Origin: Kibdelosporangium persicum
GTDB taxonomy: Bacteria; Actinomycetota; Actinomycetes; Mycobacteriales; Pseudonocardiaceae
DNA: 64,000 nucleotides
Assembly: GCF_013280595.1 (NCBI RefSeq)
Contig: NZ_JAAATY010000031.1
Coordinates: 1 to 64,000 of the forward strand
Reading direction: 5' to 3'
The notes beneath the pieces are model-generated. The model saw only the letters and a program-made list of their open reading frames with translations. It ran no database searches and was not told the DNA's origin. Made by a program: the position numbers and the translations under genes. Positions 1 to 56,877 of this stretch are shown here, piece after piece; the stretch's first letter is position 1; each line of letters opens with the position of its first letter.

Positions 1-188
1 AGCATTGACCACCCACCAAGGCACCCCCGCCCCAACAACTCACAGTGGAAAAGCTGGGCAGACCAGCGGCTCCCGCACGCCCACGACAGAAACCACCGGC
101 CCACCAACACAACCACCCACGACCAAGATCACCAACAAAACCCATCGGTGGATCTGGGTTCTAACCCGGATAAACACTCACGAGGGGG
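1..188. other. Left-edge non-coding stretch
   Basis: C-rich, low-complexity sequence (many ccacc/caac runs) precedes the C39-like peptidase stop. A short open frame runs rightwards through it (positions 5-199, Thr/Pro-rich, about 64 codons) but has no recognisable domain, no ribosome site and ends inside the dispersed palindrome. It is probably not a gene, although the end of a gene entering from outside the window cannot be excluded. Confidence 0.4.
156..188. repeat. Dispersed palindrome, copy 1 (half element)
   Basis: The core gggttctaaccc and an intact right arm GATAAACACTCACGAG are present, but the left arm that should mirror it is replaced by unrelated sequence (cccatcggtggatct). It lies just past the 3' end of the C39-like peptidase gene. 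Five other copies in the window have both arms. Confidence 0.8.
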
Positions 189-1421
189 TCATGGGGTGAT
201 GATGTAGGCGATGCCGCCGGGACCTCCCGCGACCGAACCGTCCGTGCGGTACCGCTTGGTGCGTTGCCAGATGTTTTCGAACTGGGCTCGCTTGTAGACG
301 TTGCGGACACGGTCGTTGCTGGCGGACGCCGGGTCGTTGACGATCACGTCGCCGTCCTTCGTGAAGCCGATGACCACCATGATGTGGCCGGCCGTGCCGT
401 AGCCCGCGCCATCGAGCTCCGAAGCCAGGAACGACTGCGAGGTGATCACCGGGATGCCGCGCCTGATGTACCGCTCCAGCTCGGCGAGCGAGCGCAGCCG
501 GGTCACGTGCGCCTTCAGGCCGTACGTCGCCGCGTAGGCGGTGTTGAACGGCCAGTTGCCCGTTCCGTCGTAGTCCTTGTCGTAGGTGAACCGGGCCGCG
601 TGGTCGACGCTCGGGTCCGCATAGGACGGATCGACCCATGCCAGATCCTCTGGGGAGGGCCGCTTTCCCCAGTACTCCACGACCATCTGCGTCGAGGTCG
701 GGCTGCACCAGGCCTCACCGCCGCCGCCGTACTCCGGATACTGTCCGATGTGGATGTTCTGGGAGTACCGCGGCACCGTCAGCTCGATGCCCCAGGCACC
801 GGCATTCGGGCTCGTCGGAACCGTGAAGCGGTCCGGGATCGCGGACGTCATCGCGCCGGCCATGGACAACGTCGGCGATTCGTCGGTTCCCGCGGCACGG
901 TAGAGCGTCACGCGGAGCTGGTAGGCGCGCAGCGGCGACCGAGCGACGAACGTGTCGACGTCGATGTAGCCGTGCTCGTCAGTCTGCTGCGGCAGGCTCG
1001 TGCGGCGGATGTCCGTGTCGGGCAGGGCCCATCGGCCCATGCCGTACCAGATGGTCTCGGCCCCGGACGCCGTCTTCCCGCGCATGTCCACGCGCAGCCA
1101 AGTGCCCTTGGGCGTGGTGGCGTTCCACGAGGCGACGAGCTGCGTCGCGTCGAATCCCTGGCGGTAGTACGGCGACGTCCACGTGCCGTACTCGTACGCG
1201 CGGGTGCCCATGTCCGGCTCTGTATGGTCGATCGTGCCCGCCGGGCGCCCGATCCGCAGGCCGCGCAGGGTCGGGATCAGGCCGTCGCGCTGGCCCGCGA
1301 AGAAGAAGTCGTGCTTCTGCCACGAGTGGAAGTCGACCGGCGCCTGCGGCTGGGCCGCCGTCGCGGGAAGGACGGGCAACGACAGCAGGGTGGCTATGGT
1401 CAGCAGGGCTAAGCGGGTCAT
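189..1421 (-). CDS. Secreted C39-like peptidase
   Basis: A 410-residue exported protein. The start chosen (MTRLALL) follows a GGGAG ribosome site by about 7 nt and opens a Sec signal peptide of about 23 residues ending ATAAQ; a more upstream in-frame ATG has no such support. The N-terminal half is probably a beta-sandwich region. The C-terminal half has the papain-fold C39-like signature: a Cys in GEAWCSPTS (near residue 235), a His in GHIMVVIGF (near 350) and an Asp in VNDP. The Cys-His-Asp order fits the Peptidase_C39_2 family. No ABC transporter or bacteriocin gene is adjacent, so a free-standing extracellular cysteine peptidase or amidase-like role is more likely than leader-peptide processing. 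Substrate unknown. Confidence 0.8.
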   Translation of the reverse strand: MTRLALLTIATLLSLPVLPATAAQPQAPVDFHSWQKHDFFFAGQRDGLIPTLRGLRIGRPAGTIDHTEPDMGTRAYEYGTWTSPYYRQGFDATQLVASWNATTPKGTWLRVDMRGKTASGAETIWYGMGRWALPDTDIRRTSLPQQTDEHGYIDVDTFVARSPLRAYQLRVTLYRAAGTDESPTLSMAGAMTSAIPDRFTVPTSPNAGAWGIELTVPRYSQNIHIGQYPEYGGGGEAWCSPTSTQMVVEYWGKRPSPEDLAWVDPSYADPSVDHAARFTYDKDYDGTGNWPFNTAYAATYGLKAHVTRLRSLAELERYIRRGIPVITSQSFLASELDGAGYGTAGHIMVVIGFTKDGDVIVNDPASASNDRVRNVYKRAQFENIWQRTKRYRTDGSVAGGPGGIAYIITP

Positions 1422-1483
1422 GGCGTCTCCCTCGGATCCGTGGGAGATATTTTCATCATTGTGATAGATCATGTAAACAGCTG

Positions 1484-2053
1484 TCAGGGTGGATCACGGT
1501 CGAGCTCGTCCAGGAAGTCCTTCCAGAACTGCTCCACCGTGCGCTCGTAGCGCAGCCCCAGCTCCAGGGTCTTGAGCTGCCACCGGTCGGCCACCGCCTC
1601 GATCTGGGCGCGCTGCTGGTCGTAGCCGTCCGCACGGGCCCGGTGCGACCGGTAACGGTCTCTGGCCAGTCGGCGGATGTCGTCGGGCGTCGCGCTGACT
1701 CCGAAGAACAGCTTGAGCAGACCGGTGTCCCGGACCTCGGTCTGCTCAAGGGTGGGCTCGGCGAGCCAGTCGGCCAGCGCTTTGCGGCCCTCGTCGGTGA
1801 TCGCGTACGTCCTTTTGCGTCTGCCGCCCTTCTCGGTGGTCTGGGTGACCAGGCCGGCCGCGGCCAGCCGGGCGGGTTCGTCGTACAGCTGCGAGTGCGC
1901 GAACGCCCAGAAGTTGCCGACGGTCCGGCCGACCCGTTGTTTGAGCTCGTAGCTCGTGGCCGGACCGTACGAGAGCATGCCGAGAACGACGTACGAGGTC
2001 GCGTTGAGCTTGCGGGAGCGGCCTGCGGCCGGCTCGTCGAAATCGGCGGGCAG
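1484..2053 (-). CDS. PadR-family transcriptional regulator with CTG start
   Basis: A 189-residue PadR protein with N-terminal winged helix (LNATSYVVLGMLSYGPATSYELKQ is split here as LNATSYVVLGMLSYG then PATSYELKQ) and a C-terminal vinculin-like dimerisation helix. The first in-frame ATG (1978) lies inside the conserved first helix and would cut the fold. The frame is open upstream to a TGA at 2062-2060 and contains no ATG or GTG there. The only suitable start is CTG at 2053, placed 9 nt after a perfect AGGAGG. PadR proteins usually repress a neighbouring efflux or catabolic gene; no such partner is evident, and the flanking peptidase and phosphoesterase genes look unrelated. Confidence 0.82.
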   Translation of the reverse strand: MPADFDEPAAGRSRKLNATSYVVLGMLSYGPATSYELKQRVGRTVGNFWAFAHSQLYDEPARLAAAGLVTQTTEKGGRRKRTYAITDEGRKALADWLAEPTLEQTEVRDTGLLKLFFGVSATPDDIRRLARDRYRSHRARADGYDQQRAQIEAVADRWQLKTLELGLRYERTVEQFWKDFLDELDRDPP

Positions 2054-2149
2054 CGGGAGTCACCTCCTGGGAACGAGGCCCTGACCATAGCGATCACCCG
2101 GCGGTTGCGCCGCTCCCCATAGCACCACACTCCAGCGGTTCCCGCCTGG

Positions 2150-3859
2150 TCAGAACGGTTTCGCCAGGACCAGTTCCGTGTTGTGGTCGACGGCCGCGCC
2201 CATCAGCCCGGGATCCCTGTGCAGGTCGTTGAGTGAGATCTGCCGGTACAGCGACGCCAGCCCGGCAGGCGAGCTGTCGCCGTAGTCGGCCTCGTACGGG
2301 CTGTCGGCCTCGATGAGGGTGGTGAACAACGACAGCGTGCCGTCGCCGTTGTCGGTCAGCTCGATGATCCTCGCGTGCTGCGGGAAGTCGATGTGCGAGG
2401 CGGTGTTGATCTCCCAGAACCCCTGCGCGGGCGTGGCGCCGCGATGTGCGGTGATCGCGTTGCGGTGCGAGTGGCCGTTCACCCACGCGACGACGTTCGG
2501 GAACCGGTTGAGCAACGCGACCAACGCCTTGCCGTCCCGCCTCGGTTCGAGCAGGTTCGTCGGGTCCGGCAACAGGTTGTCCATCGTGGTGCTCGTGTGG
2601 TGGCTGAACAGGATGAACAACGTGTCCGCGGCACTCGTGCGGACCAGATCGCCTTTGGTGTCGTAGTAGCGGGAGCTGCCCGCTTCCAGCGTGCGCTCGA
2701 TCCGCTTGAACTGTCCGTCGCCCAGCGAACCGTCCGCCAGTCCGGCGCGGTTGGTCGTGTCCATACCGATGCCGACGACACCGGGCGCGATCGGGAACGT
2801 GTAGTAGAGGTCGCGGCCCGTGGCGTTGGCGGGTCCGAAACCGTGACCGGCCGGGCCGGGGCCGGTGTTGCGCGGATCGCGGTGCGCGGCGACGTACTCC
2901 TTCGGCGTGAAGGGCCTTCGGCGCGCGTCCGGCGTGACCCGGCGGACCGGTCCGCTGAAACTCAGCAGCAGTTCGACGGCCCTGAGCGGCGACGTGCGCA
3001 TGGCCTCGGCGAGTTTGGCGGCGTCCGACTGGGAGGAGAAGCCCTCGATCTTGAACGAACCGGTGTAGAGGGCGTCGACCAACGGCACACCACTGGGGAA
3101 CGTGCCTTGCACGCTGTCGTCGTGGTTGCCGAAAACGCTGTACCAGGGCCGGTTCAGGCCGGGACTGGTGAACGGCTTGACGGCGTTGGCGAGCAGCTCC
3201 GGCATCTGCGGGAAGCCCTTGTCCTTGTACATGTCCGCGACACTGTCGCCGGGGTTCCAGTAGAGCTTCGACCGCGAGTTCTGCACGCCTTCGAACCGCG
3301 CGGGATCACCGGTGTCGGGCGTGATCGTGCCACCGTTGAGGATGGTCAGGAACCAGTCGAGCTCGACGAGCTCGTGGTTGTCGGTGTTGTCGCCCGTGCT
3401 GAGCACGAAGTCGAACGGCCGCCCGGTGTAGGGGCCCCGCGTCGCGTTGACCCGCTTGATCAGCGCGGCGGCGCCCTGCGTTCCCAATGTCTCTTGTGGA
3501 CGATGTGCGGACCCGATGAACGGGTGCACGTACTCGACCCGCGCCGGGCTTTGCGCGTCGATCACGTGCATGTCGGTGAGCTGCACGAACGAGGTGAGCG
3601 CGGTCCGCCGGTCGTCCCGGCCGGTCCGCGGTTCGACGAGGTCGGGGCGCACGACGAGCGGCCAGCCCGGCCCCGGGACCAGACGCCGGAAGCCGGTGCC
3701 CGCCGGCACACCGACGACTTCCAGCGTCGTTCCGGCGGGATTGACCGTGCGCTTGATCGTTTCACGCGACGCGTGGTCGCGGGCTTGCGCCGGAGTGGCG
3801 GCGAGCAGACCCAACGCACCAGTGGCAGTCAGCAGACGACGACGGCTAAGGGTGGCCAT
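2150..3859 (-). CDS. TAT-exported metallophosphoesterase (TIGR03767-like)
   Basis: A 569-residue calcineurin-like phosphoesterase. The start at MATLSRRRLLTATG opens a twin-arginine signal (SRRRLL then a hydrophobic stretch ending AQA) and is preceded by CAGGA. Dinuclear metal motifs are in order: TDMHVID (D-x-H), STGDNTDN (GD), VFGNHDD (GNHD), FSHHTS and VNGHSHRN (GHxH). The length and the Thr-Asp-Met-His start fit the actinobacterial TIGR03767 (PPA1498-like) group. It probably folds with its metals in the cytoplasm and hydrolyses phosphoesters outside the membrane; the substrate is unknown. It is not obviously in an operon with the PadR gene downstream. Confidence 0.88.
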   Translation of the reverse strand: MATLSRRRLLTATGALGLLAATPAQARDHASRETIKRTVNPAGTTLEVVGVPAGTGFRRLVPGPGWPLVVRPDLVEPRTGRDDRRTALTSFVQLTDMHVIDAQSPARVEYVHPFIGSAHRPQETLGTQGAAALIKRVNATRGPYTGRPFDFVLSTGDNTDNHELVELDWFLTILNGGTITPDTGDPARFEGVQNSRSKLYWNPGDSVADMYKDKGFPQMPELLANAVKPFTSPGLNRPWYSVFGNHDDSVQGTFPSGVPLVDALYTGSFKIEGFSSQSDAAKLAEAMRTSPLRAVELLLSFSGPVRRVTPDARRRPFTPKEYVAAHRDPRNTGPGPAGHGFGPANATGRDLYYTFPIAPGVVGIGMDTTNRAGLADGSLGDGQFKRIERTLEAGSSRYYDTKGDLVRTSAADTLFILFSHHTSTTMDNLLPDPTNLLEPRRDGKALVALLNRFPNVVAWVNGHSHRNAITAHRGATPAQGFWEINTASHIDFPQHARIIELTDNGDGTLSLFTTLIEADSPYEADYGDSSPAGLASLYRQISLNDLHRDPGLMGAAVDHNTELVLAKPF

Positions 3860-4048
3860 GCGCCGATCCTGCCGGAGAACATGAAGAAAAGTCACTACTC
3901 CGAAGGTAGCTGCCGAGCCTCTTGGCTCCACTGTGGACGTGAGCACAAACTTGAGTTCTCACACGGGAAAGTGCTCAACTTTGGGCTTCGGGACGGGCGC
4001 GTTCGCCCCCGGCCGGGCGGCGGGAGCGAACGCGAAGCGCCCACGCGG

Positions 4049-4864: not shown

Positions 4865-4881
4865 GACACTAACTGTAAGCA

Positions 4882-4906
4882 GGGTACTAACTCGCGGTAA
4901 GTACCC
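4882..4906. promoter_or_regulatory. HxlR operator candidate in divergent promoter
   Basis: Perfect 7-bp inverted repeat GGGTACT-N11-AGTACCC between the divergent oxidoreductase and HxlR genes. Leftward -10 TACAGT lies at 4877-4872 and rightward -10 TATACT at 4919-4924, so one dimer could control both promoters. Confidence 0.65.
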
Positions 4907-4930
4907 ACTTTGCTGTCATATACTTACTTC

Positions 4931-6972: not shown

Positions 6973-7017
6973 TCCGTTCGTTACCCGCAGGCCGGGGAAA
7001 AGAGGCACCCTGTCGCC

Positions 7018-9906: not shown

Positions 9907-10477
9907 CTATCGAGTCGACGACGACGTGCTCCTCGACGCGGCACGCAGCTGCGTGCTGGCCATCGGCGTCGGCCGGACCACCCTCACCGAGGTCGCCCGG
10001 CGTGCCCAGGTCAGCCGGATGACGCTGTACCGCCGGTTCCCGGACGTGCGCAGCCTGATCGCGGCCCTGATGACCAGGGAGTTCGGCGGGCTGCTCGCCG
10101 AGATCTCGGCGTCGTTGACCGCGCCGGCGGCTCGCGAGCGGCTGGTGACCGGCCTGACGACCGGCATCCGGGTGCTCGTGGACAACCCAATCATGCGGGC
10201 GGCGCTGGACCTTGAACCCGAACTGATCCTGCCGTACGTGGTGCAGCGGCTGGGCAGCACGCAACGGCTGACTGAGCAGTTCATCGCCGACCAGCTGAAG
10301 GCGGGGCACCAGGACGGCTCCATCCGGGTCGCCGACGTACCCACGCAGTCGCGGGCGGTCCTGCTGGTCATCCAGTCCTTCGTCCTCTCGCTGCGACCTG
10401 CCACGTCCGATGTGGACAAAGACGCGCTGCTCACCGAACTGGGCACGATGCTGCACGGTGCCTTGGAGCATCGGTGA
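9887..10477 (+). CDS. TetR-family regulator of the ether-lipid/glycerol-phosphate locus
   Basis: A 196-residue TetR protein: N-terminal helix-turn-helix (TEVARRAQVSRMTLYRRFPD, residues about 33-52) and a C-terminal ligand-binding helical domain. It sits between the divergent AGPS-like gene and glpD, overlaps glpD by 4 bp (GTGA), and an inverted repeat overlaps its start codon. A lipid or acyl ligand would fit the neighbours, but this is inference. Confidence 0.88.
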   Translation: MTSQRHTYRVDDDVLLDAARSCVLAIGVGRTTLTEVARRAQVSRMTLYRRFPDVRSLIAALMTREFGGLLAEISASLTAPAARERLVTGLTTGIRVLVDNPIMRAALDLEPELILPYVVQRLGSTQRLTEQFIADQLKAGHQDGSIRVADVPTQSRAVLLVIQSFVLSLRPATSDVDKDALLTELGTMLHGALEHR

Positions 10478-11964
10478 ACACCTCGCTCAACGCGCGGCGG
10501 CGGACCGCCGACATGACCGAAGCGGCCAAGGACGTCGTCGACGTGCTGGTCATCGGCGGCGGGGTGACCGGCGCCGGTGTCGCGCTGGACGCCGCTTCCC
10601 GTGGCCTGTCGGTGGTCCTGGCCGAGGCGCACGACCTGGCGTTCGGTACGTCCAGGTGGTCGAGCAAGCTGATCCACGGCGGGCTTCGGTACCTGGCAAA
10701 CGGCGACGTCGGACTCGCGTACGAGAGCGCGGTCGAGCGCGGAATCGTGATGACCCGCACCGCGCCACACCTCACCAGGCCGCTCCCCCAGCTCATTCCC
10801 TTGCACGAAGGCGTTTCCGGCACGCTGGCGATGACCGGCCTGCAGGCGGGCGACGTGCTGCGCCGGTTGGCGCGGACGCCTTCCGCTCTGCTTCCGAGGC
10901 CACGGCGCGTGCCCGCGGCCGAAGCGCTCGCGCTGGCGCCCGGGTTGAAGCGCGAAGGTCTGCGGGGCGGCCTGCTCTCGTATGACGGTCAGGTGATCGA
11001 CGACGCACGGTTCGTGGTCGCACTGGCCAGGACCGCCGCCGGGTTCGGCGCCAGAATCCTGACCAGGACCAAGGCCGTTTCGCTCGACGGCGACGGCGCG
11101 CGGCTGCGGGACACGCTGACCGGGTCGGAATTTGACGTCCGGGCCAGGAAAGTGATCAACGCGACCGGCGTTTGGGCAGGTCAGCTCGTTCCGGCCGTGC
11201 GGTTGCGCCCGTCGCGCGGCACGCACGTCGTGCTGGCGTCCACCGGGATCACGGGGACGTCGCTGACCGTGCCGATTCCCGGTTCCCGCAACCGGTTCGC
11301 GCTCGTTCTGCCCCAGGTGGACGGCCGGATCCACATCGGGCTGACCGACGAGCCGGTGGACGGCGAGATCCCGGACGTGCCCACGGCACCGGACTCCGAT
11401 GTGGACTTCCTGCTCTCGGTCGCGTCTTCGGTGCTCGAACGGCCGCTCACCCGCGCTGACGTGCTGGGTGCGTACGCCGGACTGCGTCCGTTGCTCGACG
11501 CATCAGGCGCGAGCGCCGACCTTTCCCGGCGGCACGCCGTGCTGACCGCGCCCAACGGCGTGATCACCGTTGTCGGCGGCAAGTTCACGACGTACCGCCG
11601 AATGGCCGCCGACGCGGTCGACGCCACCGGGCTCACCACGGTTCCGGCACGTACCAAGGACATTCCGCTCGTCGGTGCCACGGCACGCGGGCGACTCACC
11701 CGAATCGACGCACCGGCTAGGCTGATCGCCAAGTACGGCACGGAAGCCGTGCAGGTGGCCAAGCTGGACCCGACGCGGCTGCACCCGGACCTCACGGCGG
11801 CCGAGGTAATTTGGGCCGTCGAGCACGAGGGCGCGCTGGACGCCGAGGACGTGCTGCACCGCCGCAGCCGTGTGGGCCTCGTTCCGGCCGAAGCGAACCC
11901 CCTGGTAGACATCGTGAGTGTTTATACGGGTTCTAACCCGTACAAACACTCACGAGGGTCTTGA
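10474..11964 (+). CDS. glpD: Glycerol-3-phosphate dehydrogenase/oxidase, repeat-derived C-terminus
   Basis: A 496-residue FAD-dependent glycerol-3-phosphate dehydrogenase that would oxidise G3P to dihydroxyacetone phosphate at the membrane. It has an N-terminal Rossmann motif (VIGGGVTGAGVALDAASRGL), the GlpD signature GTSRWSSKLIHGGLRYL and VVGGKFTTYRRMAADAV near residue 365. Start GTG 10474 overlaps the tetR stop. The normal fold runs to about ALDAEDVLHRRSRVGLVP; after AEANPLVD the last 18 residues (IVSVYTGSNPYKHSRGS region) are translated from the dispersed palindrome at 11912, so the native stop has been lost or replaced. The DHAP product is the precursor used by the AGPS-like partner. Confidence 0.88.
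   Translation: MNTSLNARRRTADMTEAAKDVVDVLVIGGGVTGAGVALDAASRGLSVVLAEAHDLAFGTSRWSSKLIHGGLRYLANGDVGLAYESAVERGIVMTRTAPHLTRPLPQLIPLHEGVSGTLAMTGLQAGDVLRRLARTPSALLPRPRRVPAAEALALAPGLKREGLRGGLLSYDGQVIDDARFVVALARTAAGFGARILTRTKAVSLDGDGARLRDTLTGSEFDVRARKVINATGVWAGQLVPAVRLRPSRGTHVVLASTGITGTSLTVPIPGSRNRFALVLPQVDGRIHIGLTDEPVDGEIPDVPTAPDSDVDFLLSVASSVLERPLTRADVLGAYAGLRPLLDASGASADLSRRHAVLTAPNGVITVVGGKFTTYRRMAADAVDATGLTTVPARTKDIPLVGATARGRLTRIDAPARLIAKYGTEAVQVAKLDPTRLHPDLTAAEVIWAVEHEGALDAEDVLHRRSRVGLVPAEANPLVDIVSVYTGSNPYKHSRGS
11912..11955. repeat. Dispersed palindrome, copy 2 (inside glpD 3' end)
   Basis: 21-bp arms beginning TCGTGAGTGTTTATACGGG around a 2-nt centre, with one mismatch. It is translated as the C-terminus of GlpD and is followed by the TGA at 11962-11964. 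Confidence 0.9.
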
Positions 11965-16770: not shown

Positions 16771-17919
16771 ATGGCAGTCGAACGTCTGCTCCCGGACACC
16801 GAGGCGGAGGACCTCATCGCCTTGGCACGGGACATAGCCGCCAACGAACTGGCCCCCAAGGCCGGCGAGTACGAGGAGAAGGAGCTCTTCCCGCGGGAAC
16901 AGTTCCGGCTGCTCGGCCGATCAGGCCTGCTCGGCCTGCCGTACCCGGAGCGATGGGGCGGCGGTGGAGTGTCGTACGAGGTGTACCTGCAGGTTCTCGA
17001 GGAAATCGCGGCCGCCTGGATGACCGTGGGCGTCGGCCTGTCCGTGCACACGATGTCCTGCTACGCCCTCGCCGAGTACGGAACCGACTCGCAGCGCGAC
17101 GAGTGGCTCCCCGACATGCTGGGCGGTGACCTGCTCGGCGCGTACGCGCTGTCCGAGACCCACGCGGGCTCCGACGCGGCCGCGCTGTCGACCCGTGCGG
17201 TCCTCGACGGCCCTGACTACGTGGTCACGGGCACGAAGGCATGGATCACCCACGGCGGCCAGGCAGATTTCTACACGACCATGGTGCGGACATCCCCGGA
17301 CGGCGGCCGTGGCATCAGCTGCCTGCTCGTCCCCGCGGACACACCAGGCCTGTCCGCCTCCGCCCCCGAACGCAAAATGGGCATGACGGCGTCGACCACA
17401 GCGCAAATGATCTTCGACGGCGCGCGGGTGTCCACGGGACGGCGCCTGGGCGAGGAAGGCATCGGCCTGAAGATCGCCCTGTCGGCCCTGAACTCCGGGC
17501 GCCTGGGCATCGCGGCCTGCGCGGTCGGCCTGGCCCAGGCAGCGTTGGACGAGGCCGTGCGCTACGCGAAGGAACGCAGTCAGTTCGGCCGGTCGATCAT
17601 CGAGTTCCAGGGAATGGAATTCCTGCTCGCCGACATGGCAGCCGCGGTGGAGTCCGCACGGGCGACGTACCTGGAAGCGGCGCGGCGCCGAGACCGTGGC
17701 CTGCCGTTCAAGAGGCAGGCGTCCATCGCGAAGCTGGTGGCCACGGACGCGGCGATGAAGGTGACCACCGACGCGGTGCAGGTCCTGGGTGGCGCCGGAT
17801 ACACAAAGGACTTCCCCGTGGAGCGCTACATGCGGGAAGCGAAGGTCCCGCAGATCTTCGAAGGCACGAACCAGATCCAGCGCATGGTGATCGCCCGGGA
17901 ACTGCGGAACAAGGCTTGA
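16771..17919 (+). CDS. Acyl-CoA dehydrogenase
   Basis: A 382-residue FAD-dependent acyl-CoA dehydrogenase introducing the alpha,beta double bond in beta-oxidation or branched-chain amino-acid breakdown. Family motifs: YALSETHAGSDAAAL (near residue 127), AWITHGGQADFY, GGAGYTKDFPVERYMREAK and the C-terminal FEGTNQIQRMVIAREL, which supplies the catalytic Glu. ATG 16771 is 7 nt after CGGAGA. It stands alone, divergent from the PfkB kinase; chain-length preference cannot be read from sequence. Confidence 0.92.
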   Translation: MAVERLLPDTEAEDLIALARDIAANELAPKAGEYEEKELFPREQFRLLGRSGLLGLPYPERWGGGGVSYEVYLQVLEEIAAAWMTVGVGLSVHTMSCYALAEYGTDSQRDEWLPDMLGGDLLGAYALSETHAGSDAAALSTRAVLDGPDYVVTGTKAWITHGGQADFYTTMVRTSPDGGRGISCLLVPADTPGLSASAPERKMGMTASTTAQMIFDGARVSTGRRLGEEGIGLKIALSALNSGRLGIAACAVGLAQAALDEAVRYAKERSQFGRSIIEFQGMEFLLADMAAAVESARATYLEAARRRDRGLPFKRQASIAKLVATDAAMKVTTDAVQVLGGAGYTKDFPVERYMREAKVPQIFEGTNQIQRMVIARELRNKA

Positions 17920-32596: not shown

Positions 32597-32650
32597 ACCC
32601 CTCGTGAGTGTTTATCAGTGTTAGAACACGGATAAACACTCACGAGGGGT
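32597..32650. repeat. Dispersed palindrome, copy 3
   Basis: 20-bp perfect arms ACCCCTCGTGAGTGTTTATC and complement, with an inner GTGTT-AGA-AACAC-like stem. Located between the ureA start and the 3' end of the cyclodeaminase-like gene, 8 bp past that gene's stop. Confidence 0.92.
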
Positions 32651-32658: not shown

Positions 32659-33606
32659 TCACAGCGGCACGTCGACGCCGACGCCCAGCTCGGCAGCCCG
32701 GCGCAACACGTGGTCGGCGGCGTACAGGTCCTCGGTGGCGATGCCCAGCGACCGGAACATCGTGATCGCGTCCGGACCGGAGCGGCCGGTGGCCTTGCCG
32801 ATCAGCAGGTCCCCGAGTTCACCGCGGACGTCCGGCGGGTCGATCTGGAACTCCTTGGCCTCGCCTTGGACGGACTGCATCGCGTCGACGTAGAGCTCGG
32901 CTGCCTTGGCGGTTCGCGTGTCGACTTCCTGATGGTGCACGGTGCTCGCGCCCACGGCGTTGACGTGCGTGCCGGGACTGAGCCAATCCCGTTGCACGAC
33001 AGGCTCTTTCGAAGTCGTCACGGTCACGACGATGTCCGCGTCCCGGACGGCTTGCTCGGCGCTGCCGACTGCTTTCAGGTCGAAGGCGACGTCCATCCGC
33101 TCCACCAGCGCGGGCGCGGATCGCGGCGAGAACACGCGCGCTTCTTTGATGTCCCGGACCAGAGGAATGGCGCGCAGATGCGCCTCGGCCTGCACACCGG
33201 CGCCGATGATCGCGAGCGTTTCGGCGTTTTCCCTGGCCAGCAACCGGGTCGCCAAGGCGGACACCGCGGCGGTCCGGATTTCGGTGATCGCCGAAGCGTT
33301 CAGAAAAGCCAGCGGCTCGCCGGTGACACCGTCGAAGAGGATGACCGCGCCCTGGTGCGTGTCCATCCCGCGTCCCGGATTGTCCGGCACGATGCACAAC
33401 AGTTTTGTGCCGAAGATCGCGTGTTCCCCGCCACGGTAAGCGGGCATCCACACACCGAACGCATTCGTGGCGGACGGCGTGAACACTTTCCGCAGCGGCT
33501 GCTCGACCAGGCCCTCCGCCCTGGCGCGGAGGGCCGCGGCCATCACCTCGACGCACTCGCTCATCGGCAGTGCGCGGTGGACGTCCGCCGCGGAGAGGAT
33601 TTGCAT
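32659..33606 (-). CDS. Ornithine cyclodeaminase / mu-crystallin family protein
   Basis: A 315-residue NAD(P)-dependent enzyme. Rossmann motif LAIIGAGVQAEAHLRAI (near residue 130) and family segments GTKLLCIVPDNP, GAVILFDGVTGEPLAFLNAS and ALATRLLA. Members deaminate ornithine to proline, dehydrogenate alanine or reduce cyclic imines (ketimine reductase); sequence alone does not tell which. Its 3' end meets palindrome copy 3. A GATAGT -10-like box lies 9 nt before the ATG. Confidence 0.9.
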   Translation of the reverse strand: MQILSAADVHRALPMSECVEVMAAALRARAEGLVEQPLRKVFTPSATNAFGVWMPAYRGGEHAIFGTKLLCIVPDNPGRGMDTHQGAVILFDGVTGEPLAFLNASAITEIRTAAVSALATRLLARENAETLAIIGAGVQAEAHLRAIPLVRDIKEARVFSPRSAPALVERMDVAFDLKAVGSAEQAVRDADIVVTVTTSKEPVVQRDWLSPGTHVNAVGASTVHHQEVDTRTAKAAELYVDAMQSVQGEAKEFQIDPPDVRGELGDLLIGKATGRSGPDAITMFRSLGIATEDLYAADHVLRRAAELGVGVDVPL

Positions 33607-38326: not shown

Positions 38327-39486
38327 CCGAAGCGGCCGACCGTTACTTCTGGCTGTGGGACACGTTCTTCGCACTCGTCTACGTCACGGTTGTCCTCTTG
38401 GTTCTGTTCATGGCCGAGGGAGCGACCACGGCTGAGCGCGCGGGTTCGATCGTGCTGTTGACCATCATCGCGGCCTGCTACGCCTTCTTCGGCAGGCGCG
38501 AGATGCACGCCGAACGATTCGGTTGGCGGCTCAACCTGTTCGTCGGCATCCTGTTCTGTTGCCTTGTCGCGTCGGCGTTCCTGGTGCCGATCACCCAGTA
38601 CAGCTTCTTCGGCGTGATCCCGCTGCTGTTCATGAGCTTGCGGTTGACCGTGGCGATCGTGCTGGTCGCGATGTCCATCGTGGTGACGACGCTGTTCGCG
38701 ACCTTAGGCGATCCGTACACGAACTGGCTGGCCACCGGCGTGGCGATCGGGATCAGCACGCTCTTCTCGGTGATGATCGGCATCTGGATCGACAAGGTGG
38801 TCCGGCAGAGCACCGAACGCGGCGAGCTGATCAAGCAGTTGGAGGCCAGCCAGGCGGAGGTCGCCCGGCTGTCGCGGGAGGCCGGCGTCGCCGGGGAACG
38901 CGAGCGGCTGGCGGGCGAGATCCACGACACCCTGGCCCAGGGCTTCACCAGCATCGTCACGTTGGTGCAGGCCGCGGAATCCGAACTCGGCAGGGACGAA
39001 ACGCAGGTACGTAAGCATCTGGCGCTCGCGTTGCGGACCGCGCGGGAGAACCTGTCCGAATCCCGTGCCCTGGTCGCGGCCCTGGCGCCGGCCGAGCTGG
39101 CCGAGAGTTCGGTGCTGGACGCGATCCGGCGGCAGGCGGCCAAGCTGACCGAGGAGACCGGTGTCTCGGCCGAGGTCGCCGTGCAGGGTGAGCGGCGGCC
39201 GTTGGCGACCGGGATCGACGTGGTGCTGCTGCGGACCGTGCAGGAGTCACTGTCCAATGTGCGCAAGCACGCCGACGCGCGCAGTGTCGAGATCGTACTG
39301 TCCTATCAGGAGAGTTCAGTCGTGCTGCTGGTCACCGACGACGGCAAGGGCTTCGACCCGGCCGCGGTGACCAGCGGGTTCGGGTTGCGCGGGATGCGGT
39401 CGCGGATCGAGCACGTCGGTGGCGCGTTGTCGGTGACCAGCTCGACCGGCTCGGGCACCACCGTCGAACTGGAGGTGTGCACGTGA
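38323..39486 (+). CDS. NarL-type sensor histidine kinase
   Basis: A 387-residue kinase: about five TM helices in residues 10-155 without a large external domain, a coiled linker (LIKQLEASQAEVARLSREA), HisKA_3 with the phospho-acceptor His in ERLAGEIHDTLAQGF (near residue 205) and an HATPase domain with VQESLSNVRKHADA and DDGKGFDP. Such short-loop kinases often sense cell-envelope or membrane cues through the paired ABC exporter. GTG overlaps the permease stop. Confidence 0.9.
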   Translation: MTEAADRYFWLWDTFFALVYVTVVLLVLFMAEGATTAERAGSIVLLTIIAACYAFFGRREMHAERFGWRLNLFVGILFCCLVASAFLVPITQYSFFGVIPLLFMSLRLTVAIVLVAMSIVVTTLFATLGDPYTNWLATGVAIGISTLFSVMIGIWIDKVVRQSTERGELIKQLEASQAEVARLSREAGVAGERERLAGEIHDTLAQGFTSIVTLVQAAESELGRDETQVRKHLALALRTARENLSESRALVAALAPAELAESSVLDAIRRQAAKLTEETGVSAEVAVQGERRPLATGIDVVLLRTVQESLSNVRKHADARSVEIVLSYQESSVVLLVTDDGKGFDPAAVTSGFGLRGMRSRIEHVGGALSVTSSTGSGTTVELEVCT

Positions 39487-40100
39487 TCAAGGTGCTGCTC
39501 GTCGACGACCACCCCGTGGTGCGGGAAGGGTTGCGCGGCATGCTCGACGCCGAGCCGGATCTGGTGGTGGTCGGCGAGGCCGGGTCCGGCGAGGAGGCCG
39601 TGGCCATGGCGACGGCGGCACGTCCCGACGTCATCCTGATGGACCTGCGGATGCCCGGCCTGGACGGCGCGGGCGCCACCGAGAAGATCACGTCCCTGAA
39701 CATCGGCAGCCGTGTCATCGTGCTCACGACGTACGAGACGGACGCGGACATCCTGCGCGCCGTCGAGGCGGGCGCGACCGGCTACCTGTTGAAGGACGCG
39801 TCCCGTGCCGAACTGGCCGGTGCCATCCGGGCCGCGACGCGAGGCGAAACCGTGCTGGCGCCTTCCGTGGCCGGGCGGCTGATGCGGCGGATGCGCCAGC
39901 CCGCGCAGCAATCCCTGAGCGCGCGGGAGATCCAGGTGCTCCGGCTTGTCGCGAAAGGACAGACCAACGCGGAGATCGGAGCCTCGCTGCACATCAGCGA
40001 GACCACCGTGAAGACGCACCTGCTGCGCGTGTTCAACAAGCTCGGCGTCTCCGACCGGACCGCGGCCGTCACCACCGCCATGTCCCAAGGCATCCTCTGA
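39483..40100 (+). CDS. NarL/LuxR response regulator
   Basis: A 205-residue regulator: receiver domain with DDHP, phosphorylatable Asp in VILMDLRMPG (near residue 52), Thr/Ser in VLTTYE and Lys in YLLKDA; C-terminal LuxR HTH (LSAREIQVLRLVAKGQTNAE). GTG 39483 overlaps the kinase stop (GTGA) and gives the usual MIKVLLVDDH start; a GTG two codons earlier is possible. Likely target: the P450 and ABC promoters with their palindromes. Confidence 0.9.
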   Translation: MIKVLLVDDHPVVREGLRGMLDAEPDLVVVGEAGSGEEAVAMATAARPDVILMDLRMPGLDGAGATEKITSLNIGSRVIVLTTYETDADILRAVEAGATGYLLKDASRAELAGAIRAATRGETVLAPSVAGRLMRRMRQPAQQSLSAREIQVLRLVAKGQTNAEIGASLHISETTVKTHLLRVFNKLGVSDRTAAVTTAMSQGIL

Positions 40101-40103: not shown

Positions 40104-40157
40104 ACCCCTCGTGAGTGTTTATCCGGGTTAGAACACGGATAAACACTCACGAGGGGT
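40104..40157. repeat. Dispersed palindrome, copy 4
   Basis: 22-bp perfect arms opening ACCCCTCGTGAGTGTTTATC around ggttagaaca. It fills the 69-bp gap between the convergent response regulator and serC genes. Outside it, CTGAAAAACCCC and GGGGTTTTCAG form a second, outer complementary pair, so the region would make a strong bidirectional terminator. Confidence 0.93.
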
Positions 40158-40169: not shown

Positions 40170-41393
<1,224 letters not shown>

Positions 41394-51010: not shown

Positions 51011-51107
51011 AGTGACATTCCTCCGTTCGGCAACCAAAGTACTGACTAAGGGAGTGCGAATCCGCTGGGGATGCGGGAAGATCGACGGAGAGGATCTCGC
51101 TGAGGCG

Positions 51108-51139
51108 CGGCGCGCCTACTTCGTCAAGGAGGCGCGCCG
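51108..51139. terminator. Hairpin upstream of sepH
   Basis: Stem CGGCGCGCCT / AGGCGCGCCG with inner CTT/AAG pairing around cgtc. Lies between the divergent GT87 and sepH starts, 49 bp before sepH; could be a leader structure. Confidence 0.45.
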
Positions 51140-51187
51140 TATTAGCGTCACAAAGTCAGCGAGGTGAAGTCATTCGGGAGGCTTGAA

Positions 51188-52279
51188 GTGCGCGCGCTGC
51201 GAGTTGTCGGGCTCGGCGAGGATGGCAGGACTGTCATCCTCGAAGACCCGATGCGTGGCGAGCGTTTCCAGCTCCCGGCGGACGAGCGGTTGCGTGCGGC
51301 TGCCCGTGGCGACGTCACCAGACTCGGCCAGATCGAAATCGAGCTGGAGAGCCAGATGCGCCCACGTGAAATCCAGGCCCGTATCCGTGCGGGTGAGTCC
51401 GTCGCCCAGGTCGCCGAGGCGTCCGGCCTGCCGGAGGACAAGGTCGAGCGGTTCGCCTACCCGGTGCTGCTCGAACGGTCCCGCACGGCGGACCTGGCCC
51501 AGCGCGCCCACCCGGTCCGGGAGGACGGGCCGGACGTGCAGACGCTCGGCGAGGTCTGCGCGCACGCGTTCGGCCTGCGCGGGCAGGAGTACTCCGAGGC
51601 GGTCTGGGACTCGTGGAAGAACGAGGAGAACAAGTGGATCGTCCAGCTGCGCTGGACGGCGGGCCGCTCGGACAACCGCGCGCACTGGTCCTTCCACCCG
51701 GGTGCGCACGGCGGCACGGTCACTCCGCTCGACGACCACGCCCACGACCTGCTCGACCCGAACCCGAACAGGTCGCTGCGGACCGTACGGCCGGTCACCG
51801 AACTGGCCAGGCAAGCGCTTGCGGTCGAGGCTGCGGCCCGTCCGCAGCCGGTCACGCCTGAGCCGATCGAGCCGGTCTACACCGAGCCACGCCACCAGGC
51901 GGAACCGGCCTACCAGCCGGAGCCCGCGCGCCAGCCGGAACCGGAACCGGTCTACCGCCAGCCGGAGCCCGAGCCCGCTCCCGCCGTGGCACACCGCCCG
52001 GAGCCGCAGCCCGAACCGCAGCCGGTGGTACGGCCGGACCCGGTTCCGGCTGCGGTCGAGCCCGAACCGGCGCCGGCACCGGAGCCCGAGCCCGCACCCG
52101 CTCCGGCGGCCCCGGCCGCGTCGGGCAAGCCGGTGCAGGAGGAACTGGTGCCGGAGCCCGAGCCGAAGCCGGAAGCGGCCAAGGACAAGCCCGCGCCCCG
52201 GCGTGGCAAGAAGAAGAACCACCCGGTCGTCCCGGCCTGGGAGGACGTCCTGCTGGGCGTCCGCTCCAACCGAGGCTGA
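51188..52279 (+). CDS. sepH: Septation protein SepH
   Basis: A 363-residue SepH (DUF3071), which binds FtsZ and promotes septum assembly in actinobacteria. Conserved N-terminal domain: RALRVVGLGEDGRTVILEDP, a helix-turn-helix (AGESVAQVAEASGLPEDKVE) and YAYPVLLERSRTA-like FAYPVLLERSRTADLAQRAH, then WTAGRSDNRAHWSF. A long Pro/Glu-rich repeat (about residues 220-330) leads to the conserved C-terminus KNHPVVPAWEDVLLGVRSNR. GTG 51188 is 6 nt after GGGAGG. Confidence 0.95.
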   Translation: MRALRVVGLGEDGRTVILEDPMRGERFQLPADERLRAAARGDVTRLGQIEIELESQMRPREIQARIRAGESVAQVAEASGLPEDKVERFAYPVLLERSRTADLAQRAHPVREDGPDVQTLGEVCAHAFGLRGQEYSEAVWDSWKNEENKWIVQLRWTAGRSDNRAHWSFHPGAHGGTVTPLDDHAHDLLDPNPNRSLRTVRPVTELARQALAVEAAARPQPVTPEPIEPVYTEPRHQAEPAYQPEPARQPEPEPVYRQPEPEPAPAVAHRPEPQPEPQPVVRPDPVPAAVEPEPAPAPEPEPAPAPAAPAASGKPVQEELVPEPEPKPEAAKDKPAPRRGKKKNHPVVPAWEDVLLGVRSNRG

Positions 52280-52282
52280 CAC

Positions 52283-52336
52283 CCCCCTCGTGAGTGTTTA
52301 TCAGGGTTAGAACCCCGATAAATACTCACGAGGGGG
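52283..52336. repeat. Dispersed palindrome, copy 5
   Basis: 20-bp arms CCCCCTCGTGAGTGTTTATC and complement with one mismatch. It begins 4 bp after the sepH stop and borders the decayed membrane-protein gene. Confidence 0.92.
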
Positions 52337-53065
52337 TACAGCACCGCGCTGGACCGCGCCGCCGCAGGGCTTCGGTGAAGAACGGCGGCGTCTCGGGGTT
52401 GCTCGTGAACCGCGAACGGTACCGGCGCCAACGGCACCAGCACCGCTGCCAGCGTGCCGAACCACAGCAGTCGCAGTGGAACGTGCGTGGCGTTCTCGGC
52501 GAAGGTTTGGATTCGTTGGCACGCCATCGCGAGCAGGATTCCGACCGCCGGAACACACGCCATGAACCGTGATCACCAGTGCCCGGGCGGCGGCCACGCA
52601 CCACGACCAGATTCCCAGCACCGCCAGGAAAATCACCAATGACCAGCCGAGAAACGCGTTCTCCTCGGTCGGGTTGATGGCGAACTGCCTGCTCACCTCG
52701 GACGGGCCCGCCAGCGAGTAGCTGCCGAACGCGGTCACGGTTGCCAGGTCGTTCCCGGCGAGGGCGTGGTTCATGTCGGCGTAGCTCTGCGACCCGAAGA
52801 ACTGGTGCCACAAGGGATACGCGACAACATGTGCTGGTCCTGCCCGGCGCCGGGCAGATAGCCGTGCCGCAGGTCAGTCCACATGCGACTGTAGAGCAGC
52901 GCCGCCGCGAGCGCGTACACGCCGACGACGAACGCGTCCGTCGCGGTCGGGCGAGCGGCCGTCTGCCGGATCCGTTGGGTCAACCCGATCACAACCCGAA
53001 GACACAGCCGTGTGGTGCTCGGGTTGTTGACCTCCAGTGCACTTGAGGTCGCAGGATGGCCCATG
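52337..53065 (-). pseudogene. Decayed polytopic membrane protein (glycosyltransferase-like)
   Basis: Leftward fragments in three frames of one protein. The N-terminal part (DAFVVGVYALAAALLYSRMW then LRHGYLPGAGQDQHML, near 52960-52830) is joined directly to a far-downstream part (WHQFFGSQSYADMNH ... NPTEENAFLGW, 52812 leftwards), so the middle is deleted. A shift near 52563 moves to VGILLAMACQRIQTFAENAT ... LLWFGTLAAVLVPLAP, and another to ETPPFFTEALRR. The end is cut by palindrome copy 5. Intact homologues are large actinobacterial GT-C-like membrane proteins. Confidence 0.7.
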
Positions 53066-53158
53066 GCGAAGGTGGCGGCCGCGGCACGGAAATTCGGGTG
53101 CACCGGATCGCGTTGCTTTGTAACGTCGAAGGCTGGCATCTACCTGTTTGGGGGCAAG

Positions 53159-54931
53159 ATGGAGGAGGCGGAGCAACCACGCTCGGCCTATCGATCCCTG
53201 TGGCGCCTCGGTCCTTACGCGCGACCGTGGCGCCGTCGGCTGGTACTCGCGATCGTCGCCACGATCTGTGCGATGGCCGCGGGCCTGACTATTCCGCTGA
53301 TGATCCAGAGCATCCTGGACGGCCCGATCGCCCGGGGTGAGACCACCGGCCTGATCTGGCCGGTCCTCGGGATCGCACTGCTCGGCTTCGCGGAGGCCGG
53401 GCTTTTCTATTGCCGCCGAAAGATGCTCGCGCGGCCGACGACACACATCGAGGCGCGGATGCGCCATGACATCTACGCGCACCTGCAGCGCCTGCCGGTC
53501 TCGTTCCACGACCGTTGGCAGTCCGGGCAGCTGCTGTCCCGCGCGGTGACCGACTTGTCCACCATCCGCGGGTTCTTCGCGTTCGTCGGGGTTTTCCTCG
53601 TGGTGAACAGCCTCACCCTGGTCGGTGGCCTGGTCGTGCTGTTCTCGCTGGACTTCTGGCTGGGCCTGACCGTGCTGATCTCGGCGCTGCCGTTGATCGC
53701 GATCTCCACGGTGTTCGAGCGCAAGTACAAGGTCGTCGCCCGGCTCGCCCAGGACCAGGACGGCGACCTCGCCACCACGGTCGAGGAGTCCGCGCTCGGT
53801 ATCCGGGTGCTCAAGGCGTTCGGCCGTGGCCCGCACCTCGCGGCCAAGTTCGCCAAACAGGCCAAGGTGTTGCGCGGCACCGAACTTCACAAAGTACGGA
53901 TCTCCTCGCTGCTGTGGGGCGCGATCGTGCTGCTGCCGGAGATCGGCATCGCCGGGCAGTTGCTGGTCGGCACGTCCGGGATCGTCAACGGCACGATGAC
54001 CGTCGGCACGCTCGTCGCCGCCGTGACCGTCGCGGCGTACCTGCGGTGGCCGACCGACTCGATCGGCTGGCTGCTCGCCGAGACCAACCAGACGTCCGCC
54101 GCGACCGACCGGTACTTCGAAGTGCTGGACGAGCCGGTGACCGTGGCCGATCCGGCCGACCCGAAGCCGCCCGCCAGTCCGCCGCGCGGCCTGCTGCGGT
54201 TCGACAACGTCCACTTCAGACACACCGAAGGCGGCAAGGAGATCCTGCGCGGCGTGGATCTGGAGGTCCGGCCCGGCGAGACGGTCGCGCTGGTCGGTGC
54301 CACCGGAACCGGTAAGACCACGCTCACCGCGCTGGTGCCGCGGCTTGCCGACGTGACCGAAGGCCGGATCACGATCGACGGCGTGAACGTCGCGGACATG
54401 CGGCTGGCTGACCTGCGCACCCTGGTGTCGGTCGCGTTCGAGGAGCCGGTGTTGTTCTCCGCCAGCGTGCGGGAGAACGTCGCGCTGGGGTCCACGGACG
54501 CCACGGACGAACAGGTCTGGGAGGCGCTGCGAGTCGCTCAGGCCGACGGGTTCGTCACCGCGTTGCCATGGGGCCTGGACACCCGGATCGGCGAGCAGGG
54601 CCTGTCACTGTCCGGCGGTCAACGGCAGCGGCTCGCACTGGCCCGCACGATCGTCGGCAGGCCGGCGGTCCTGGTGCTCGACGACCCACTGTCCGCTTTG
54701 GACGTGCACACCGAGGCCGAGGTGGAACGCGCGCTGCGCGAGGTGCTGTCCGGCGTGACCGCGTTGGTGGTCGCGCACCGGCCGAGCACGGTCCAGCTCG
54801 CCGACCGGGTCGCGATGCTGGCCGACGGCCGGATCGCCGCCGTCGGGACGCATTCCGAGCTGCTGGCGGGCAACTCGGCCTACCGCAGGCTTCTGTCTAC
54901 TTTGGATGAGTCGGAGGAGGTGAGGGCGTGA
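53159..54931 (+). CDS. Heterodimeric ABC exporter, subunit 1 (degenerate ATP site)
   Basis: A 590-residue half-transporter: six TM helices (about 25-310) and an NBD with Walker A GATGTGKTT (near residue 385), signature LSGGQRQRLALAR and Walker B LVLDDPLSALD. The residue after the Walker B Asp is Asp, not the catalytic Glu, so this ATP site is degenerate, as in TM287/288- or BmrCD-type pairs. ATG 53159 follows a GGGGGCAAG sequence. Overlaps subunit 2 by 4 bp (GTGA). Confidence 0.9.
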   Translation: MEEAEQPRSAYRSLWRLGPYARPWRRRLVLAIVATICAMAAGLTIPLMIQSILDGPIARGETTGLIWPVLGIALLGFAEAGLFYCRRKMLARPTTHIEARMRHDIYAHLQRLPVSFHDRWQSGQLLSRAVTDLSTIRGFFAFVGVFLVVNSLTLVGGLVVLFSLDFWLGLTVLISALPLIAISTVFERKYKVVARLAQDQDGDLATTVEESALGIRVLKAFGRGPHLAAKFAKQAKVLRGTELHKVRISSLLWGAIVLLPEIGIAGQLLVGTSGIVNGTMTVGTLVAAVTVAAYLRWPTDSIGWLLAETNQTSAATDRYFEVLDEPVTVADPADPKPPASPPRGLLRFDNVHFRHTEGGKEILRGVDLEVRPGETVALVGATGTGKTTLTALVPRLADVTEGRITIDGVNVADMRLADLRTLVSVAFEEPVLFSASVRENVALGSTDATDEQVWEALRVAQADGFVTALPWGLDTRIGEQGLSLSGGQRQRLALARTIVGRPAVLVLDDPLSALDVHTEAEVERALREVLSGVTALVVAHRPSTVQLADRVAMLADGRIAAVGTHSELLAGNSAYRRLLSTLDESEEVRA

Positions 54932-56826
54932 GCGAGCTTGCGAGCGAATCATCCGGCGCAGGGCCGGGCTCAGGCGACGGGACTGCCGGACCGCGCGAGA
55001 TCCGTATGAGTCAGGACGAGTCGTGGCGCGGGGTCGCGGCCGAAGAGGTCCAGGAACTGGACTCCGTGGTGGGCGCCAAGTTGCAGGCCCGCTCGCGCAA
55101 GCTGCTCGGGTCGTTGATCCGCCCGCGCCTCTGGCCGGCCGCGGCCGCGCTGACCCTGGTGATCCTGCAGAACCTGTCGTCGCTGGCGGGTCCGTTGCTG
55201 ATCGCCGCGGCGATCGACACCGGTATCCCGTCGGCGATGAACGGTGACCACAGCGTTCTCGCCTGGTGCATCGGCGCGTACGCCTTCAGCGCGATCGCGA
55301 ACTCCGGCCTGCTGATGGCGTTCCAGCGGCTGGCCGCCCGGATCAGCCAGGACGTGCTGCTCGACCTGCGGCAGCGGCTGTTCCGGCACGTGCAGCGGCT
55401 TTCCTTGTCGTTCCACGAGTCCTACACCTCAGGCAAGGTGATCTCGCGGCTGACCGCGGACATGGAGTCGATCAACAAGCTGTTGGAGGACGGCTTGGAC
55501 AACATGCTCAACGCGATCCTGTCGCTGGTTTTCATCGGCACGCTGTTGCTGGTCCTGGACGTCCCGCTGGCGTTGATCGTGATGGCCGGGTTCGTCCCGC
55601 TGGTCCTCATGCTGCGCTGGTTCCGGAACACGTCGGGCCGGGCGTACCGGCACACGCGCGGCGCGATCGCCAAGGTGATCGTGCAGTTCGTCGAGACCAT
55701 GAACGGAATCCGCGCGGTGCAGGCGTTCCGCCGGGAACGCCGCAACGAGGCCATCATGAACGTCGAGAACGTCGCGTACCGGGACGCCAACCACACCGCG
55801 ATCGGCGCGGTGGCGACGTTCGTGGCGAGCGTGCGGTTCATCGGCAACCTGTCGCTGGCGATCGTGCTGGGCGTCGGCGCGTGGCGGGTGACCGGCGGCA
55901 GCATGGAACTCGGCGTGCTGACCGCGTTCACGCTGTACCTGCGGCGGTTCTACGACCCGCTGGACGACCTGGCGCAGGTCGCGAACTCCTACGCGTCGGC
56001 GAGCGCGGCACTGGAGAAGATCTCCGGCGTGCTCGAAGAGGCGCCTGCGGTCGTCGAGCCCGCGAAGCCGAAGCTGTTGCCCCGCGCGGGAACCATCGAG
56101 TTCGACAACGTGGAGTTCCGGTACGGCCCGGACGGGCCGGTGGTGCTGCCGGCGTTCGACCTGACCATCCCGGCCGGGCAGACCGTCGCCCTGGTCGGCG
56201 CGACCGGCGCGGGCAAGTCCACGATCGCCAAGCTGGTCGGCCGGTTCTACGACCCCACAGCGGGGTCCGTCCGGCTGTCCGGAGTGGACCTGCGGGACGC
56301 CGCGGACGCGGACCTGCGGTCCAAGGTGGTCACCGTGACCCAGGAGAACTTCCTGTTCTCCGGCTCGGTCGCGGACAACATCGCGCTCGGCAGGCCCTCG
56401 GCGAGCCGCGGCGAGATCGAGTCGGCAGCCGCGGCGGTCGGCGCGCACGAGTTCATCGCGGCCCTGCCGGACGGCTACGACACTGACGTGCGCAAGCGCG
56501 GCGGCAGGCTTTCCGCGGGCCAACGCCAGCTGGTCGCGTTCGCGCGGGCGTTTCTGGCCGACCCGGCCGTGCTGGTCCTCGACGAGGCCACGTCCAGCCT
56601 GGACGTTCCCGGCGAGCGGGCGGTGCAGGCCGCGCTGGAGACCGTGCTGACCGACCGGACCGCGTTGATCATCGCGCACCGGCTGTCGACCGTGCTGATC
56701 GCCGACAGGGTGCTCGTGGTCGACGGCGGCCGGATCGTCGAGGACGGTTCCCCCGCCGACCTCATCGCCGCAGGTGACGGCGAGTTCGCCAGCCTGCACC
56801 GCGCCTGGCTCGACTCCCTCGCCTGA
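54928..56826 (+). CDS. Heterodimeric ABC exporter, subunit 2
   Basis: A 632-residue half-transporter with an N-terminal acidic extension (about 50 residues), six TM helices and a canonical NBD: Walker [10 protein letters not shown] (near residue 425), Walker [12 protein letters not shown] with the catalytic Glu. Its signature reads RLSAGQRQ instead of LSGGQ, which is the complementary change expected for the degenerate composite site shared with subunit 1. Multidrug or lipid export is likely; the substrate is unknown. Palindrome copy 6 follows the stop. Confidence 0.92.
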
Positions 56827-56831
56827 ACCCC

Positions 56832-56877
56832 CTCGTGAGTGTTTATCAGGGTTCTAACACTGATAAACACTCACGAG
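56832..56877. repeat. Dispersed palindrome, copy 6
   Basis: 17-bp perfect arms CTCGTGAGTGTTTATCA and complement, between the convergent ABC exporter and DUF2537 genes; it abuts the DUF2537 stop codon (56880-56878). Confidence 0.92.

Follow-up and report, generated by a model that had tools for sequence, protein, structure and literature searches.

DNA uptake sequences of Neisseria and the Pasteurellaceae occur as inverted pairs at gene ends and come in species dialects. Intrinsic terminators form stable hairpins 3′ of stop codons, often between convergent genes. Repetitive extragenic palindromic (REP) elements have species-specific variants in which complementary changes are kept, as far as the accessible part of PMC2817692 goes, and their palindromes are targets of insertion sequences (ISs), according to the accessible part of PMC1525189. 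Here, we describe a 46-bp palindrome dispersed through the genome of Kibdelosporangium persicum (G000; 10.35 Mb in 89 contigs) and first seen in a stretch of 64,000 nucleotides, positions 1 to 64,000 of contig NZ_JAAATY010000031.1, which we call the window. We judge it somewhat probable that this palindrome is a dispersed hairpin, copied as DNA from a polar master and working as a two-way transcription-end hairpin, mostly at or behind stop codons. A description of the family was not found in the literature searched.

To which of these systems does the palindrome compare? With REP elements and REP doublets forming hairpins (REPINs) it shares the many short extragenic palindromes per genome, the species-specific variants, the complementary changes and the targeting by ISs, in so far as the accessible parts of those sources describe them; it differs in its length of 46 bp, in its tight placement at stops and in that no Y1 transposase or REP-associated tyrosine transposase (RAYT), no GTAG/GTGG head and no pairing of the kind seen in bacterial interspersed mosaic elements (BIMEs) were found. 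With intrinsic terminators it shares the stable hairpin 3′ of stops, often between convergent genes, and sister genomes carry ordinary hairpins at some of its sites; unlike them, it has a conserved sequence and a mostly fixed length and is alike within a genome. A T-run stands on a minority of its sides. In contrast to DNA uptake sequences, the family lacks single copies inside genes (3 of 163 arms are single, all of them split by an IS).

The palindrome and its position at gene ends

The copies in the window and the IS end beside one of them, with strand where one applies, are the following:

1 to 157, plus strand: right end of an IS1380-family IS, made up of the last part of the transposase frame, with a stop near 6-8, and the 3′ non-coding end; matches the other IS right ends of G000
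158 to 184, minus strand: right half of a palindrome with its centre, split by the IS, 3′ of gene 189-1421 (minus); from arm search and gene calls
11911 to 11956: 46-bp palindrome in the 3′ end of plus-strand open reading frame (ORF) 10474-11964; RNA fold of 11908-11960, −32 kcal/mol, z −8.5
32601 to 32646: 46-bp palindrome, 12 nt past the stop of minus-strand gene 32659-33564; each strand folds at −41 kcal/mol, with z −10.4 and −12.1
40108 to 40153: 46-bp palindrome between convergent genes 39483-40100 (plus) and 40170-41306 (minus); each strand folds at −42 kcal/mol, with z −11.3 and −11.4
52287 to 52332: 46-bp palindrome, 7 nt past plus-strand gene 51251-52279; fold −43 kcal/mol, z −10.5
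56832 to 56877: 46-bp palindrome between convergent genes 55006-56826 (plus) and 56878-57417 (minus); from arm search and gene calls

All six places named in the original prediction exist, as five complete copies and a split one, and each has GTTCTAAC or GTTAGAAC at its centre. What had been taken for a half copy at 156-188 is not a decayed repeat: it is one half (158-184) of a palindrome into whose centre an IS1380-family element has inserted. Three copies had been placed between convergent genes; genes called with a home-made Markov caller leave two of them there (40108 and 56832), copy 52287 having a plus-strand gene on either side. Copy 11911 lies inside the 3′ end of an ORF and is read in frame. 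The frame of this ORF (10474-11964) runs through the complete palindrome, and the hairpin would encode part of the C-terminus.

Each half of the 46-bp unit reads CTCGTGAG-TGTTTATC-VGK-GTT, with a two-base centre, AG or CT, between the halves, and the polar master can be written CTCGTGAGTGTTTATC-AGG-GTTAGAAC-ACS-GATAAACACTCACGAG. The arm CTCGTGAGTGTTTATC has 11 matches in the window at up to 3 mismatches, against 0.22 expected from shuffled sequence. Over the whole of G000 the 16-base arm has 397 matches on the plus and 399 on the minus strand at up to 2 mismatches, and the reversed arm, as a control, none; a strict pattern finds 334 full palindromes. In having over 100 of these short extragenic palindromes in one genome, the family resembles REP/RAYT systems. 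A set of 1.25 Mb of G000 that includes the window, and whose C3 and C4 parts were chosen for containing copies, holds 82 copies. In this set 160 of 163 arms belong to full 46-bp palindromes and the remaining three are IS-split copies, one of them in the window. The outer TCGTGAG and inner GTT are near-invariant over the 82 copies, 81 of which share the 8-base centre (otherwise present in the 1.25 Mb only in the three IS-split copies), and nine are letter-identical. The absence of GTTAGAAC outside palindromes (0 seen, 1 to 4 expected) is not significant. Within 800 kb of contig C1 the scores, out of 44, are 38-44 for 53 copies, 33 for two IS-split copies and at most 27 for the background; a tail of decayed copies is thus not visible, although copies at 27 or below would escape.

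The flanks of these 53 copies are rich in C (83, 74 and 64% at −1, −2 and −3), and no GTAG or GT(A/G)G head was found beside them. A longer element with an outer stem was ruled out, because beyond the 46 bp the flanks are complementary no more than composition predicts, single sites such as 288542 being exceptions. Close inverted pairs of the BIME or REPIN type do not occur on C1, where the minimum spacing among 63 copies is 1060 bp and 3.9 neighbours within 1 kb would be expected. A copy in the G007_C6 stretch (position 16932) has its centre GTTAGAACACGT duplicated in tandem. Rfam at its gathering threshold gave no match in the window, and one palindrome copy searched against plasmids and phages gave none either.

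In the 1.25-Mb set 64 of 82 copies lie at a stop that faces them (19 overlapping, 45 at 0-30 nt), compared with about 11% for random placement within gaps, a null in which overlap with a gene is impossible; for the 800 kb of C1 the figure is 43 of 53 (16 overlapping, 27 within 30 nt). The TGA inside the palindrome is itself the stop codon of 17 gene ends. On the complete contig C1, copies occur in 31 of the 162 gaps between convergent genes, in 20 of the 550 between tandem genes and in 12 of the 162 between divergent genes. With the RNA folds of the window copies (six strands of four copies, with energies from −32 to −43 kcal/mol and z-scores from −8.5 to −12.1), these counts place a stable hairpin directly 3′ of genes, as in intrinsic terminators. 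The predicted 3′-end bias is therefore present, and the roughly 400 arms per strand, mostly at stops, are neither confined to the window nor spread evenly inside genes.

The family extends beyond this genome. A pattern fixing the outer 9 bases matches in all eight genomes of the genus (334 in G000, then 393, 123, 117, 80, 17, 4 and 3), G000 and G007 being the two copy-richest. A looser pattern has at least one match in 91 of 200 genomes of the family and 25 of 46 genera, with at least 10 matches in 44 genomes, counted from the listing, and 1 to 3 in many others. The highest count, 453 in 6.5 Mb, belongs to G488, a genome of genus g21 like G027 (136 in 6.1 Mb); G034 has 70 pattern matches, but also 31 control hits. 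Class-wide, 3 of 394 genomes match, G000 among them, and the other two (G358 and G365), from outside the family, have two CGTGAGTG palindromes each, with different inner arms. Sequences of family relatives were taken from the first-listed genomes. The span between outer CGTGAGTG boxes, boxes included, is exactly 42 nt in 34 of 38 rows of g16 and 27 of 30 rows of g42, while the centre GTTNNAAC occurs in 28 of 38 rows of g16 and 0 of 30 of g42. The genome-wide, genus and family counts bear out a dispersed REP-like family, as had been proposed.

Polarity, base pairing and probable inheritance of sites

The original prediction spoke of a variable centre; this centre has a polarity. With copies oriented by their AG centre, the G/T mismatches at position 19 fall almost all on one side, by 30 to 1 in 63 copies of G000, 14 to 0 in 31 copies of G007 and 3 to 0 in 27 oriented rows of g16. 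This polarity is independent of transcription (17 copies sense and 14 antisense; 16 and 18 at convergent sites). A one-sided mismatch, a polarity unrelated to transcription and the nine identical copies among 82 say that the copies probably derive from a polar unit by copying. Positions 17 and 19 as independent half-sites were dropped, since polarity accounts for them.

Base pairing was read from every plus-strand row listed for seven genomes, both for g16 and g42 and for the pooled set. Among 158 pooled copies of 42 nt, 84 to 94% have a Watson-Crick match at each of the inner pairs 11 to 16, and four of these six pairs occur in all four Watson-Crick types; at pairs 17 and 19 the share is only 63 and 65%. 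Inner pairs are also more often Watson-Crick within a copy than with partners taken from other copies: 87 against 49% in g42 (30 listed rows), 81 against 53% in g16 (38 listed rows), 74 against 58% in the four copies of G006 and 86 against 52% in the low-copy genome G004, in which all 17 copies found differ, some of them in length. These comparisons show that compensatory change maintains the pairing in other species and genera.

Syntenic stretches were compared after L061 had been aligned with five sister genomes, the long alignments showing about 77 to 92% identity. Several species carry the palindrome, with differing inner arms, at sites 38681, 142764, 216276 and 288542. At site 288542 a CCCCTGG..CCAGGGG hairpin carries the element in its tip, and G004 has this hairpin without the element; G002 has a shorter palindrome there, and its score of absent is an artefact of the strict pattern that lies outside the counts below. 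Other hairpins stand in for the palindrome at the convergent site 245171, where G007, G003 and G002 carry other GC-rich hairpins followed by TTTT. It is absent at 267446 in G001 to G003, at 305293, where G007 has a small hairpin instead, and at 341928. At unrearranged sites, six copies of G000 are shared with G007 and three absent there, and in the reverse direction six are shared and six absent.

How similar are copies at the same site? The inner distance of 21 orthologous pairs from nine sites is 8.76 of 26 and that of random pairs of the same species 8.61, while within a genome it is 3.47 in G000, 5.68 in G007, 4.42 in G001 (6 copies) and 4.63 in G003 (4 copies). At G007_C6:213614, G007 and G003 have in common an outer-arm change, CACAAG, with unlike inner parts, and at 216276 the flanks match right up to the palindrome. 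The shared change and the matching flanks argue, on small numbers, that sites are inherited and their insides replaced. The family thus seems to undergo concerted evolution within species, apparently in place. That the arms are kept or copied, as had been suspected, gains support from the polarity, from the identical copies and from the likeness within genomes set against the divergence of orthologues. At C1:186137, compared with G007 and G001, about 0.6 and 0.4 kb are gone where the palindrome now follows a stop codon; the missing stretch begins in an apparent methyltransferase gene, judged by its first codons.

An IS1380-family element at the palindrome centre

The transposase of IS copy L098 matches NF033539 IS1380 (E 2.5e-83). 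All eight right ends of this element found in G000 run into the right half of a palindrome and eight of nine left ends into the left half, the ninth lying at a contig end, so all 16 readable ends sit in palindromes. The element is thus placed like the palindrome-targeting ISs (IS1397, ISPpu9 and others), exactly at the centre in every readable case; it differs from them in belonging to the IS1380 family, which the accessible part of PMC1525189 does not mention, and in that a target of 6 bp may be enough. In G000 the duplication of the target, TTCTAA/TTAGAA, is no more than apparent, as left and right ends come from separate copies; its cousin L207 in G007 lies in a palindrome with TTCTAA on both sides. 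Of the sites of this cousin (16 found, 15 fetched, 12 read at both ends), one is in a palindrome, eight are in another repeat and three elsewhere. That other intergenic repeat of G007 (L202-L215) has a GTTSAAC-like centre and arms of the GTGAGGGGAA.. and GCCGTGAAGG..CCTTCACGGC types. TTAGAA/TTCTAA stands at the centre of 81 of 82 palindromes and at six other places in the sequence read; being mostly confined to palindromes, this short motif may explain the preference of the IS, and recognition of the hairpin by IS1380 cannot be claimed.

The element is a guest at the palindrome centre and not its mover. Its ends, read inward CCTGATCCACCG on the left and CCAGATCCACCG on the right, are by eye unlike the palindrome arms, and its occurrence does not follow the copies: of 32 genomes, six contain relatives at E≤1e-100, and two of these six (G029 and G026) are without palindromes, while none was found at that threshold in the 453-copy G488. 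The palindrome does not share its ends with the resident IS1380 and is not taken for a miniature inverted-repeat transposable element (MITE) of it. Among 10 of 14 copies examined of a second IS1380 of G007, the three with placeable ends have no palindrome and seven were not placed; CGTGAGTG is also lacking at five IS1380 loci in four further genomes. The GTGTATGAGG ends near C1:91664, once considered as an IS1380 left end, are those of an IS481 element next to a gap in the scaffold. At C1:91664-91860 an IS481-like end and an IS1380 right end surround a run of N, which reflects adjacent ISs or a scaffolding error.

Explanations for the family and what they mean

In the explanation that we favour, the 46-bp hairpin element would be a unit of DNA whose copies derive from a polar master. 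Located mostly at or directly 3′ of stops, its hairpin would then serve as a two-way end of transcription, as terminator and 3′ protection. The role is suggested by its position and by the ordinary hairpins that sisters carry at some of the same sites; judged from sequence, the bidirectional terminator role of the original prediction is likely. Spread and homogenisation by copying are suggested by polarity, identity and concerted evolution, and may proceed by ectopic copying or conversion, with short tracts templated by other copies, through a machinery other than RAYT. More tentatively, such a machinery might recognise a polar hairpin in which a G.A mismatch near the tip is conserved, and rewrite in place the insides of hundreds of hairpins at 3′ ends, giving the terminators of each species one dialect. 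The explanations discussed here overlap, and the probabilities attached to them need not add up to one.

Several observations weigh against this explanation. The copying enzyme was not found. Sixteen of the 82 copies lie more than 60 nt from any stop that faces them, although the caller may have missed genes there; TTT within 12 nt downstream is found on 23 of 101 gene-following sides and on 6 of 63 other sides, and a consensus terminator scan of 30-42 kb flagged neither palindrome in that region. Mismatches in the sense RNA show no preference for G-U (5 sense, 4 antisense and 12 transversions in single-facing copies) and selection on RNA is therefore unproven. In G000 itself pairing is uninformative (84% with own and 82% with other-copy partners), because its copies are alike. 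At 245171 G001 carries a terminator-like hairpin in addition to the palindrome and distinct from it, so that one does not simply take the place of the other. Lastly, the set of orthologous sites is small, with rearrangement at many sites.

The main rival supposes that the palindrome is the site of a dimeric protein, a roadblock, nucleoid or uptake-type factor, a conserved part of which reads the outer arm and centre and a fast-changing part the inner arm, selection dragging the sites along. The near-invariant outer and inner GTT blocks beside a species-variable inner arm, the frequently unpaired positions 17 and 19 and the 46-bp geometry held in g16 and g42 all speak for such a dialect, and the uptake-sequence dialects of the Neisseriaceae behave similarly. 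We nevertheless find it unlikely, though to be reckoned with: polarity and letter-identical copies point toward copying, single arms are missing except where split by an IS, several changes would be needed at each of many sites, and GTTNNAAC is the centre in 0 of 30 rows of g42.

Somewhat less probable still is a mobile REP- or MITE-like unit, inserted afresh and repeatedly at hot 3′ ends by a transposase. The differences in presence at 267446, 305293, 341928, 117265 and 213614 would suit it, as would some 17 nt of similar sequence on either side at 267446 in G000; but a target duplication was not recognised by eye at other aligned sites, no Y1 transposase was found, and fresh insertion fits poorly with the outer-arm change shared at 213614, the flanks that match up to the palindrome at 216276 and a co-occupancy of 6 in 9 (G000 to G007) and 6 in 12 (G007 to G000), against 63 copies in 874 gaps of C1 (31 in 162 convergent).

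Plain terminators, in which selection for strong hairpins and vertical descent act and template-switch correction keeps the arms symmetric, are improbable as the whole explanation. They account for the position at gene ends, for the ordinary hairpins that sisters have at some of these sites and for the copies of G004, which vary in sequence and length yet stay paired; they leave unexplained that orthologues are no closer than random cross-genome pairs while copies are alike within a genome, and that 81 of 82 copies share an 8-base centre seen elsewhere only in IS-split copies. Mobilisation by RAYT, as first proposed, is hardly credible: copy number, extragenic palindromes and use as an IS target (as in the accessible part of PMC1525189) agree with it, but the TnpA-REP-like gene that was sought did not appear, model PF01797 having 0 matches in G000, G007, G001, G002 and G488 and being present in 6 of 32 genomes (G000 and 31 relatives) irrespective of copy number, and GTAG heads and close inverted pairs are lacking. 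By eye, no enzyme gene was recognised between close copies, where a model scan was not made.

Three features were not foreseen by the original prediction: an IS1380 element inserted at the centre, the polarity of the unit and the homogenisation of copies within species. Homologous recombination usually requires longer homology. For this reason, and because RAYT was not found, the apparent concerted evolution of a dispersed 46-bp repeat at seemingly inherited sites is hard to explain by mechanisms known to us. Since pattern counts among congeners span 3 to 393, comparison of gene content offers a way to look for its cause. Should the copies end transcription, a single repeat family would be the terminator of about one fifth of the convergent gene pairs on C1 (31 of 162).

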